A DNA stretch of 43,174 bases from Nitrospirota bacterium (GTDB lineage Bacteria; Nitrospirota; Thermodesulfovibrionia; UBA6902): NCBI GenBank assembly GCA_016215115.1, contig JACRLN010000041.1, positions 1 to 43,174 on the forward strand, given 5' to 3'. Under the pieces are notes generated by a model. The model ran no database searches. It saw only the letters and a list, made by a program, of their open reading frames with translations, and had not been told where the DNA came from. Below, one piece after another: positions 1-3,947 of this stretch. Positions within the stretch are counted from its first letter, which is position 1; every line of letters starts with the position of its first letter. The position numbers were made by a program, and so were the translations under genes.

Positions 1-97
1 GATTCCTGCGTCTCAAAACAGGGAAAGTACAGGCTGAAAAACAACGTTTTTTGCAAAGAACAATGAAAATATTTTCTAAAATTTATATTTTGTACTT
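1..97. other. Truncated start of a further integron cassette or spacer
   Basis: This AT-rich stretch lies beyond the attC-like hairpin, where the next cassette of a leftward array would begin. I see no open reading frame of useful length and no recognisable motif before the window ends. Its assignment to a cassette is inferred only from position. Confidence 0.3.
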
Positions 98-239
98 GAC
101 AACGTGGGAAGTAGTAAAGCTCAGTGAATCGAACCACTGAATGACTTCAAAGAGCAATAAAACTGATTTGCAAAACTCAAACTATCACCTGCCCAAAAAG
201 CGCCGTGTGGTTCGATTTCACTGCAGCGCATGGTTAGAC
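98..239 (-). repeat. attC-like recombination site (partly degenerate)
   Basis: Read on the minus strand, the site begins right after the cassette gene's stop with GTCTAAC (239-233), which fits the attC consensus RYYYAAC. A long inverted repeat follows: CAGTGAAATCGAACCAC (223-207) pairs with GTGGTTCGATTCACTG (137-122). One arm carries a single unpaired A, as extrahelical bases do in attC hairpins. The total length of about 140 nt is at the upper end for attC. The distal core is poor: the expected GTTRRRY appears only as GTTGTC near 103-98, so this half may have decayed. It could alternatively be an ordinary terminator-like hairpin, but its place opposite GTTAGAC at the other cassette end argues for attC. 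Confidence 0.55.
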
Positions 240-243
240 ATTT

Positions 244-1263
244 TTATTCTTCAATAAAACTCTTCAAAGTAATAATTTCCGGCAACCCATCTGTATTTTC
301 TAAATCATTATCCCAGCAAACAATGTAATCACAACCAGTCTTATCGTGCCCGTGAGATATAAAAGAACTTGCAACTACTTCAAACTCTATCTTTTTGGTA
401 TCTCTGTTTGAGTCCATTACGATAGCGTCTGGAAATTCATTTCGGATCTTTATGATATAAGGGAATCCCATGTCTCTATGAAAAAGAGAAAACAAGTAGA
501 CAACTTCTTGCTCATACTCAGGCTCAAATAAAATTCCTATCGAAGACAATGGCTTATTTAGCTTAAATTGAGACGAAGCAATTTTTTCTGGCGTTAAATT
601 CTCATATAGAAATTTGGCAAATAATGCATTGTTCCATCTTCTTAAATCAGCCTGAGAATTCTTGAAAGACAGTAGAGCTTTTTGTAATACCTCAAATTGT
701 TTCCCAACAGATAACATTTGAAATGATTTGCTAAATAATTCGTAGGACAGCTTCCCATAATCAACATTTAACTGATTACAGAATTGTTCAAGATGATTTG
801 TGCTCAATATGGGTAGAAAATCATCAGGGTAATAACAATATACAATTTTCTTGGCTATATTTTTATCACCGCCGAACCATTTAATCTTTTCCCACTCAGC
901 ATCAATTTTATCAGAAACTGATAAATCATCTTTTACAACAGTCTTCAATAAGTTAATAAATTTATCAGGGTTATCTCTGGCATTCTCTGCATAGAAAGCA
1001 TTACCAACACGAATTCTACCAAGGTCTTTCAATCCAAACTCGATATAATATAGAAAAGTTTTGTTATTGCCTTTCTGATATATAGCACTAGAAACTAATT
1101 TATCTATTTCTCCTGGTTTATCACGGAAAGGGAACAGTTCCACAAAATCGTCCAATTTCCGTAATGCGTCTACAACCGTACCTTTATTGTCAGTCTCATA
1201 TTGTTTTATATCATAATCAGTTAAGTTGAACATAGTGTTATCGCCAAAATGCTGCGTAGGCAA
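244..1263 (-). CDS. Integron cassette protein, possible PD-(D/E)XK nuclease-like, function unknown
   Basis: This 339-aa protein is the only gene in the first cassette. I do not recognise a named family for the first 230 residues, which are helical-looking and rich in aromatic and charged residues. The C-terminal part (about 265-325) has a predicted strand order FPDAIVMDSN...KKIEFEVVASSF...HGHDKTGCDYIVCWDND. The acidic residue after PDA and the E-x-E pair in a hydrophobic strand recall a PD-(D/E)XK nuclease core, although no clear lysine follows. The listed start is a TTG placed almost on top of AAAGGAGA. An ATG at 1233 would give 329 aa but has no clear ribosome site. The gene reads away from the integrase, as cassette genes do. 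A defence or nuclease role is speculative. Confidence 0.65.
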   Translation of the reverse strand: MPTQHFGDNTMFNLTDYDIKQYETDNKGTVVDALRKLDDFVELFPFRDKPGEIDKLVSSAIYQKGNNKTFLYYIEFGLKDLGRIRVGNAFYAENARDNPDKFINLLKTVVKDDLSVSDKIDAEWEKIKWFGGDKNIAKKIVYCYYPDDFLPILSTNHLEQFCNQLNVDYGKLSYELFSKSFQMLSVGKQFEVLQKALLSFKNSQADLRRWNNALFAKFLYENLTPEKIASSQFKLNKPLSSIGILFEPEYEQEVVYLFSLFHRDMGFPYIIKIRNEFPDAIVMDSNRDTKKIEFEVVASSFISHGHDKTGCDYIVCWDNDLENTDGLPEIITLKSFIEE

Positions 1264-1276
1264 TCTCCTTTCATAT

Positions 1277-1294
1277 GTCTAACAGATATTAGAC
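1277..1294 (-). other. attI-like core recombination site next to first cassette
   Basis: On the minus strand the 18 nt read GTCTAAT-ATCT-GTTAGAC. These are two inverted integrase-binding boxes with a 4-nt spacer, and the right box matches the GTTRRRY core cut after the G. The same box-spacer-box plan is seen in attI simple sites. The cassette starts at TTAGAC and runs left, and the integrase gene lies to the right and diverges, which is the normal integron order. A further inverted repeat, ACGGAAAG (1293-1300) with CTTTCCGT (1345-1352), lies just outside and could be accessory structure. Confidence 0.65.
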
Positions 1295-1717
1295 GGAAAG
1301 ATTGATATTGAATATGAAGCCATCCATATAGTATCAATATGCCGCTTTCCGTATAGCACAATATTGAAAAAAATTTATCTACAACTTATTGATTAATTTG
1401 GTTTTACAGAAAAGTCCGCCCCATAACAGGACAGCCCCCATGTACAACGAATTGGAAATCAAGAAGAGCGTGATTTAAGTTTACCGTATGTCAAAACAGA
1501 AAGGCAAGAAAAAAATGATGGTTGGAACGATTTAAAATTTATGGGTTTTTGGTATATAATTCTTGCAGGGAATAACGAATAGGGCATCTTTATAAGCCAT
1601 CAGCAAACAGCGATGAAAAGGAGAGGATGTGGATATCGTTAATCATAACGATGCTCATAACTTTTTTCCCAAAAGCTGAACGCTGAGAGCTGACAGCTAA
1701 AATCAGGAGGGGACATT
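1284..1717. promoter_or_regulatory. Integron control region between attI and intI
   Basis: This 434-nt stretch should hold the cassette promoter (leftward) and the integrase promoter (rightward). For intI there is a good -10 TATAAT at 1555-1560, with only a weak -35 (TTTAAA, 1531-1536, spacing 18). The intI ribosome site AGGAGGGG lies 5 nt before its ATG. I could not place a convincing leftward cassette promoter. Positions 1606-1702 contain the words CAGCAAACAGC and GCTGACAGCT, which belong to the degenerate 7-nt-period repeats seen elsewhere in the window. Confidence 0.45.
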
Positions 1718-3043
1718 ATGACGTTCAATTCAAAGGGCGATAGCCGCGTTTTTACTGTAAAAAAAGACCCGTGGGCTGAATATTTTCATTTCGCATTAAA
1801 AAAAGGCGTTACTGGGAAAGACGCAAGATTTTATGTGCACCGTGCAAAGCGGTTCTTCGAGTATATCAAAAAGCCGTTACGCAACTGCACCGCAAAAGAT
1901 GTAAAAGCCTTCCTTGATAATCTTTCACATGACAGCGCTATCGAACCGTGGCAGGTAGAACAGGCGAGGGATGCGCTGAGATTATTGTACAGGGATTTTC
2001 TGAAAGTTTCGTGGGCTGTACAGAAGCCCGTTGGGGCAATTCATGAATTGCCCCAACAATCAGGATTGTCATCAGAAGAAACAGTGTCAGTCAACAGCGA
2101 AATATTCAAAAAGCTGCAGATTGAGATGCGCTTTCGTCATTATTCCATTCGCACAGAAGAGACATATATTCAGTGGGTGAGACGCTTTTTGTATTTCCAC
2201 AGAACAAGATCAGCAGAAGACCTTTCTGCAGGAGATGTGAAAGTATTCCTTGAACATCTGGCGGTAAAAAAACAGGTTTCGGCTTCTACCCAAAATCAGG
2301 CGCTCAATGCAATCGTATTCTTTTTCGATCAGGTAATGAAAAAAGATTTGGGCGAGATTGGCGACTTTACAAGGGCAAAGCGTCCGTTGCGTTTGCCTGT
2401 TGTACTTGCAAAAGAAGAAGCGGACAGATTGCTCGGCGCTCTGACCGGAATATATTCATTGATGGCCGGACTGCTGTACGGAAGCGGATTGAGGATTATG
2501 GAGTGTGTGCGTTTGAGGGTAAAGGATATTGACTTTGCGCAAAATCAAATAATCGTCCGTGACGGAAAAGGACAGAAGGATCGTATAACTATCCTCCCGA
2601 AGCGTTTTCATCAGCCGCTCAAAGAGCGGTTGGATTTTGTAAAAAGCTTGCATGAAGAAGACCTTGCAAAAGGTTTTGGAGAAGTTTATCTATGGCTATC
2701 TATTGAACACAAGTACAAGAACGCCGCAAAAGAATTTATATGGCAGTATGTTTTCCCTGCCAATAATTTATCAGTGGATCCCCGAAGCGGTAAGGTTCGC
2801 CGTCATCATATAAATGAGAGCGCTCTGCAGAAAGAATTAAAGAAAACTGTTCAAACACTGGGTATCAATAAAAAAGTTAGCTGTCACACACTTCGTCATT
2901 CATTCGCCACGCATCTTCTTGAGAATGGCTACGACATTCGCACTGTGCAGGAATTACTTGGACATTCTGACGTATCTACAACTATGATCTATACGCACGT
3001 TTTAAACACGCCGGGGCTGGCAGTCAGGAGTCCGGTGGATTGA
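1718..3043 (+). CDS. intI: Integron integrase (tyrosine recombinase)
   Basis: The protein recombines attI and attC sites to capture cassettes. All catalytic residues are visible: R259 ([13 protein letters not shown]), H390 and R393 ([13 protein letters not shown]), H416 (LLGHSD) and the nucleophile Y425 (TTMIYTH). Residues about 315-368 carry the extra segment that separates IntI from other tyrosine recombinases, including WQYVFPA, DPRSG and RRHH. The C-terminus VRSPVD is also typical. At 441 aa it is longer than class 1 IntI (about 337 aa), because an additional SAM-like core-binding domain (about 18-96) precedes the usual one (about 128-212). The linker at about 104-115 ([10 protein letters not shown]) is encoded by a perfect 28-bp palindrome, 2030-2057, so a mobile short repeat has landed in frame. 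AGGAGGGG precedes the ATG. Confidence 0.93.
2030..2057. repeat. Perfect palindromic repeat inside intI
   Basis: A 28-nt perfect palindrome with outer arms GTTGGGGCAATTCA and TGAATTGCCCCAAC. It resembles the other window palindromes that end in GCCCCTAC. It encodes [10 protein letters not shown] in the linker of the integrase, between its two core-binding domains. Just before it, GGGCT (2013-2017) and AGCCC (2025-2029) form a second small hairpin. Confidence 0.8.
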
Positions 3044-3131: not shown

Positions 3132-3461
3132 TTAAACCTTTACCTCTATTCCGCTTCTCGTTATCTCATCGAGAATAGTTCCGCGCTCAATTTTCTTTAA
3201 TTGAGACGGAGAAAAACCCAGTACCTCTATTGGATATGGGATTCCCCTGGCTGCCCTGCCAAGGTATCTTGCCCTTTCCCACAAATCCATCTTTTCAAAA
3301 TCTTTGGATATAACAGCAATATCAATATCACTATCCTCATTAAAAGTCCCTTTAGCCTGAGAACCGAATATAATTACTTTTTGGACATCGATTCCAAGCG
3401 ATTCAAGATTTCGAATATATCTCGAAACTACTGTTTTAATCTTCTGTCTTGTCTGAGCCAT
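3132..3461 (-). CDS. MNT-type nucleotidyltransferase-fold antitoxin
   Basis: This 109-aa protein has the minimal nucleotidyltransferase motif GSQAKGTFNEDSDIDIAVIS at about residues 33-52. It contains the GS pair and the D-x-D metal-binding aspartates. Such MNT proteins pair with HEPN proteins; in characterised pairs the MNT partner can neutralise HEPN by AMPylation. Its ATG lies inside the end of the upstream HEPN gene (34-nt overlap), so the two are co-translated, HEPN first. Activity of this pair is inferred from the family, not shown. Confidence 0.85.
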   Translation of the reverse strand: MAQTRQKIKTVVSRYIRNLESLGIDVQKVIIFGSQAKGTFNEDSDIDIAVISKDFEKMDLWERARYLGRAARGIPYPIEVLGFSPSQLKKIERGTILDEITRSGIEVKV

Positions 3462-3820
3462 CTTAAAGTTTTCCTCGTCATACTATAAACTTCTTCCGCC
3501 TTATTAAGGTTAAAATCTTTTGATATCTTCTTTAAGTCTTCGGGATATCTCGTCACAATGCTAACATTATCAATCTTGTCAATGAAGTCCTGAATATCAT
3601 CAGGAAATTGTATTGATATTTTTTGAGATAGATAAAGAAGACTGTGCGATTTTGGAGGAAGTTCCTTTATTTCCGTAGAAATAACAGCCTTAATCATTTT
3701 CTCAATTGCAAGGTGACACATAAAAACAACATAAATATACCTTTTGGATTTCAACATTGCTTCTGCAGTCTTCAAATCATAGTTAGACGTTGCCATCCAG
3801 TTTTTTGTAGCATTTGTCAT
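3428..3820 (-). CDS. HEPN domain protein, probable toxin partner of MNT protein
   Basis: From MTNATKNW the protein has about 130 aa and a HEPN pattern: W..A..DLKTAEAMLK, then CHLAIEKMIKAV, then a helix ending in TRYPED. I chose this ATG because upstream in-frame residues (SLAKKGSYSPR) are encoded by a short repeat (about 3862-3905) and are not HEPN-like. An ATG six codons earlier is also possible. HEPN proteins are often RNases with an R-x4-6-H motif; I do not see a clean one, so catalysis is uncertain. It is the upstream gene of the pair. Confidence 0.8.
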   Translation of the reverse strand: MTNATKNWMATSNYDLKTAEAMLKSKRYIYVVFMCHLAIEKMIKAVISTEIKELPPKSHSLLYLSQKISIQFPDDIQDFIDKIDNVSIVTRYPEDLKKISKDFNLNKAEEVYSMTRKTLRWLRQDRRLKQ

Positions 3821-3859
3821 AGATATATAAAATATCATAACCTGTATATTTAGACAATA

Positions 3860-3906
3860 ATTGGGGCGAGGAGAGTAGCTCCCCTTCTTTGCTAAAGAGG
3901 AGGGCC
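3860..3906. repeat. Short palindromic repeats upstream of nifU
   Basis: The stretch includes GGGGCGAGGAGAGTAGCTCCCC followed by CTTCTTTGCTAAAGAGGAGG, two overlapping inverted repeats of the kinds found elsewhere in the window. They separate the leftward HEPN gene from rightward nifU. Confidence 0.5.
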
Positions 3907-3947
3907 GCCTTGACAACAAAAACACGCTGTGTTAATAAATAAACACC

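Follow-up and report, generated by a model that had tools for sequence, protein, structure and literature searches.

The integrase end of a probable sedentary chromosomal integron in a Nitrospirota bacterium and its recurring attI module

The window analysed here is a stretch of 43,174 nucleotides from a Nitrospirota bacterium, and its first nucleotide coincides with the end of contig C20 in a genome of 2.82 Mb and 57 contigs. At this end lie an integron integrase gene (intI), one gene cassette on the opposite strand and, between them, a module that we assign to attI. The features are as follows.

1-141, no strand assigned: overlap at the contig end, with the start of the next cassette and part of an attC, identical to C35:2891-3031
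97-239, minus strand: attC of the window cassette, with R'' at 233-239 and R' at 97-103 (model R1, covariation)
103-1282, minus strand: complete gene cassette of 1180 bp, bounded by G|TTAGAC (1283/1282) and G|TTGTCA (103/102)
244-1263, minus strand: cassette gene, 339 aa
1277-1520, minus strand: attI module of about 245 bp, with a conserved upstream part (possible Pc promoter) and the attI core; left edge ATTTTTTTCTTGCC, right edge the crossover
1278-1380, minus strand: attI core, with imperfect direct repeats, an inverted copy and then CTAATATCTG|TTAGAC (model R2, alignment A4)
1282-1283, minus strand: predicted attI x attC recombination point G|TTAGAC, from the sequence and its complementarity with the R'' box of the cassette
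1718-3043, plus strand: intI, integron integrase, 441 aa
1763-2008, plus strand: additional domain at the N-terminus of IntI, duplicated from the core-binding (SAM-like) domain (profile-profile comparison, N-domain HMM)
2030-2057, no strand assigned: palindrome with many copies in the genome, here in frame within the linker that joins the two core-binding domains (genome matches)
2105-2353, plus strand: core-binding domain Phage_int_SAM_4 (PF13495, best stretch residues 130-212)
2405-3004, plus strand: catalytic domain of IntI (PF00589, alignment A1)

To identify the integrase, we compared it with curated models, and it turned out that it reaches 464 bits against the integron-integrase model TIGR02249 (cut-off 265), while the XerC and XerD models give 166 and 155 bits, both under their own cut-offs. 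The closest PDB match is 2A3V (VchIntIA; E 1e-84, residues 133-440). In alignment A1, where one row carries one mistyped residue near the N-terminus, R259, H390, R393, H416 and Y425 are invariant and the IntI-specific patch around WQYVFP is present in the window IntI. A maximum-likelihood tree separates this IntI and 88 other IntI rows from the genome's two Xer proteins with a split support of 100/100. An earlier note on this DNA had claimed an IntI with its specific segment and named clustering with XerC/D as what would speak against it; score, patch and tree all bear the claim out, and the integrase groups with IntI. That it is instead an Xer or phage-type recombinase beside an incidental hairpin, for which the tyrosine-recombinase fold in common with XerA and XerH might speak, is already contradicted by the profile score, the tree and the covariation of attC, and has practically no chance of being right. 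The system resembles V. cholerae IntIA (2A3V) and its chromosomal integron in fold, catalytic residues, IntI patch and attI/attC logic, but 2A3V lacks the extra N-terminal domain of the window IntI, and the array here is short, unlike that of V. cholerae.

The IntI had also been described as long, which holds at 441 aa, and the cause of the length can now be specified. In the window IntI 127 residues precede the core, and a profile-profile comparison matched the first ~125 residues, as a profile from 39 integrases, to the core-binding profile with a probability of 98 and an E of 2.6e-13 (0.3 for the reversed control). In each IntI scanned, the HMM of this N-terminal segment also matches the true core-binding domain, mostly with E of about 1e-5 to 1e-14. 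In the AlphaFold model, which is moderate (pLDDT 69) and was used just for the helix pattern and the match to 2A3V, four helices (18-28, 33-50, 59-70, 77-94) stand ahead of the four of the core-binding domain. As read from these profiles, the extra length is a duplicate of the core-binding domain. Integrases with the duplicated domain are found among Delta-, Gamma- and Zetaproteobacteria, and many relatives of this genome have them as well.

A long IntI group, "clade 15", mainly from Deltaproteobacteria, was reported to be about 120 aa longer on average, which was put down to a single gene fusion (Nemergut et al. 2008, PMC2426708); the same study found more than one intI in 20% of bacteria. 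The window IntI matches this length, so the extra length itself is already known; the new part is its identity as a duplicated core-binding domain and the presence of that domain also in Nitrospirota-like, Gamma- and Zetaproteobacteria. A single clade of all long IntIs is not rejected (p-AU 0.38). A Xer-rooted tree suggested that the duplicated domain is ancestral to all IntI, but we rejected this idea given the unrejected single clade and the long outgroup branch. Besides, the palindrome in the linker (core GGGGCAATTCATGAATTGCCCC) has dozens of further short matches in its own genome, and the linkers of related IntIs contain similar or other repeat-like peptides (GAIHELPLQ, SPSPSPARGEG).

As the earlier note had it, intI (plus strand) diverges from the cassette gene (minus strand), the limits read from the sequence enclose one full cassette, and the hairpin after the cassette gene proved to be an attC. 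The window attC scores 122 bits against model R1 (E 1.5e-32 in the genome), being itself among the sequences of R1. Strong R1 matches in the whole 2.8-Mb genome number only 12 (one in the window, nine on C35 and two on C15), nine of which served to build the model. The consensus of nine attC from the window and C35 has 26 pairs, 12 of them still paired through changes on both sides. The single-strand DNA folding energy of the attC is unexceptional (z -0.88), so we dropped the fold as stand-alone evidence and used the covariation and the R'/R'' complementarity instead. The cassette opens with GTTAGAC, which is exactly complementary to GTCTAAC, its own R'' box, and this is the signature expected when cassettes are excised and joined at G|TT; the same holds for cassettes 1-3 of C35, while cassette 4 of C35 is not complementary.

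The cassette protein has no Pfam or NCBIfam match. Its C-terminal FPD...EFE domain is shared with a C35 cassette protein, and its middle part has a weak similarity to PD-T4-1 (34.8 bits); it might be regarded, very tentatively, as a candidate defence gene, possibly a phage-defence nuclease.

The array had been said to run off the window, with attC copies to be looked for beyond 1-243. The copies on C35 and C15 supply them, those of C35 lying between 870 and 11337. The link between C20 and C35 is an assembly overlap and not a read-spanning join; its 141 bp are about the length expected at an assembly-graph fork, and the array thus most likely runs on into C35. The C35 genes include pairs of PIN-domain, HicB-like or other toxin-antitoxin type, besides genes for secreted or hypothetical proteins. 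The proximal part of C35 differs, with an IS110-type end and three cassettes ahead of the fork, which suggests a duplicated cassette or two population variants.

nifU-nifS are among the neighbours, and trp genes lie further along the contig, which fits the chromosomal location claimed before. No transposon genes were found beside intI, that is, no sign there of the plasmid or transposon carriage by which mobile (class 1-3) integrons are defined. Directly after intI (3132-3925) there is a gene pair of nucleotidyltransferase (MNT) and HEPN type, likely a toxin-antitoxin module. At the right end of the contig (43042-43174) a multi-copy insertion sequence terminates, which has 23 further places in the genome, and many contigs break there.

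Between intI and the cassette, the earlier note had placed an attI of simple box-spacer-box form. The attI stands, while the simple form does not: the core consists of imperfect direct repeats (CTATRCAGAA..GGCATATTG) and an inverted copy before the crossover. In class 1 integrons attI is laid out as direct repeats with an inverted site, and the core repeats here resemble this layout. The window core matches model R2 with E 3e-26 in the genome, the window site being among the sequences from which R2 was built. By its position and sequence the site at 1278-1380 is assigned to attI: it adjoins intI, it has the crossover G|TTRRRY, and the module lies beside intI in six genomes of the genus. A scan for a consensus sigma-70 promoter called none for Pc, at background level, while promoter-like spacing is conserved in the module. 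A leader attenuator between Pc and attI was rejected (no covariation, z-scores near zero).

A second candidate attI family, C35:138-244 and its many relatives, turned out to be the terminus of an IS110-family element located at attC cores and was not counted as attI. On the left side of this repeat there are recurrent, divergent starts of an IS110-family transposase, and one copy is inside an mscS-like gene. For instance, G013:C50 carries a whole element with a 454-aa transposase (PF01548, PF02371), which is located within a cassette array at an attC core. Insertion sequences are known to target attC (PMC11187229), among them the IS1111-attC elements (Tetu and Holmes 2008, as cited in PMC11187229). 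These are elements with DEDD transposases at attC ends and explain the C35:138-244 repeat, whose element is of IS110 or IS1111 type; they are not part of the window's attI. Identical IS110-family ends stand before two different toxin-antitoxin cassettes, on C35 (L016:138-244) and C9 (L065:33-139), which suggests recent movement. The C35 module also has a promoter-like start and a GTT edge, and the window module might likewise be an insertion-sequence end. We consider this very improbable, since the window module is upstream of intI in six genomes, carries motifs both repeated and inverted ahead of G|TT, and had no IS110-type transposase directly beside it.

We also summarized the other integron and attI loci in this genome, where, as judged from sequence, intI occurs at a second locus and no fewer than three attI sites lack it. 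The second intI (C46, 456 aa) is beside asnS, and a multi-copy insertion sequence cuts into its upstream side; at this AsnS locus G000 has intI2 and G003 has attI only. C37 contains the upstream part of attI, and after it come the start codon region and the linker left from a deleted intI. On C51 and C21, attI stands next to a small gene resembling a nuclease and to a VapBC-like pair, and intI is absent. At the M1-peptidase locus, attI is accompanied by different cassettes in G000 and G003; six further genomes of the genus lack attI beside this locus, and in G004, G006 and G007 the two flanking genes directly neighbour each other. At the MidA locus attI occurs in this genome only, and the locus was discarded as a clean empty-site test because MutS was not found beside MidA in other genomes.

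Among relatives, model R2 matched all ten genomes of the genus, G015 and G030, with a weak match in G024 and none in the other 27 relatives examined. Modules with no intI next to them are widespread in the genus and also present in two relatives that are more distant. No intI was found in G002, G004, G007 and G030 at E 1e-60, yet attI is kept; the genomes compared are fragmented MAGs, and some solo attI are at contig ends, where intI is possibly missing from the assembly. In G003, G008, G002 and G030, a solo attI is followed by one gene and then an attC. Module copies within one genome are alike: 128 of 130 positions are identical between C57 and C53 of G009, whose solo contigs end inside the module, and C102 and C20 of G008 share 91% identity. 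Nothing similar remains to the left of a common starting nucleotide in these copies, which have the same left edge and unrelated flanks. The identity of attI cores is 0.81 within genomes and 0.74 between genomes (p 0.0004 by label shuffles, one antisense row included).

Downstream of nifS in G030:C51 (L132:5238-10872), three attI cores alternate with four attC without an intI, and one cassette there seems to end in an attI core and not in an attC. Besides, an attI module and an IS110 end both follow immediately on a short palindrome, CTATTTGCGCAnnnnTGCAAATAACG (L092, L105 in G003, L112 in G001), which is possibly a shared insertion target.

The best explanation, to which we give a probability of about 85%, is that positions 1-3043 hold the integrase end of a chromosomal integron that is sedentary and has a recurring attI module. 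The IntI with the duplicated core-binding domain would recombine folded single-stranded attC with double-stranded attI at G|TT, so that cassettes could move, and transcription of captured genes would probably start at a promoter within the attI module. This module, probably a promoter with IntI-binding sites, is found repeatedly across the genus as a discrete unit. Most solo attI probably mark places where an integron has lost its intI, as the AsnS locus and the deleted intI of C37 indicate, and some could perhaps be used in trans by a remaining integrase.

It is possible, though doubtful in our view, that all solo attI are dead remnants of ancestral loci, unused now, and that their likeness within genomes reflects shared ancestry or chance conversion. 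C37 and the AsnS locus in G003 are clear relics of this kind, and loss of intI with cassettes kept is common, as in CALINs (PMC9024848, PMC12444791). The 98% identity within a genome with unrelated sequence directly outside the module, the patchy presence of attI and the different cassettes at the M1-peptidase locus, and the greater likeness of cores within genomes argue against it. We regard it as rather unlikely that the module of promoter and attI is itself mobile or copied, so that one long IntI, perhaps aided by its duplicated domain at an extended attI, would serve scattered attI and cassettes would land at many chromosomal places.

Related systems are known elsewhere. In Xanthomonas, an ancestral chromosomal integron progressively lost integrase activity while its cassettes persist (PMC12444791), and likewise here; the Xanthomonas integron occupies one conserved locus, whereas the attI copies here are at several chromosomal places. 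The delta-attI-type cassettes of mobile integrons (PMC12901181) also have attI away from its usual place, comparable to the cassette ending in G030, but the present loci are environmental and chromosomal, contain whole attI modules, and no resistance genes were seen in them. In a survey of complete genomes, Nitrospirota had few integrons, namely two CALINs (PMC9024848).

In conclusion, the integron system itself is of a known kind, and the dispersed attI modules are its unusual part. The usual picture of integrons is one integrase with one docking site. A genus with attI and a putative promoter at many places, even where no integrase is detectable, offers a natural test of the use of attI in trans and of the spread of attI, and the duplicated DNA-binding domain in long IntIs raises the concrete question of how attI and attC are recognised.
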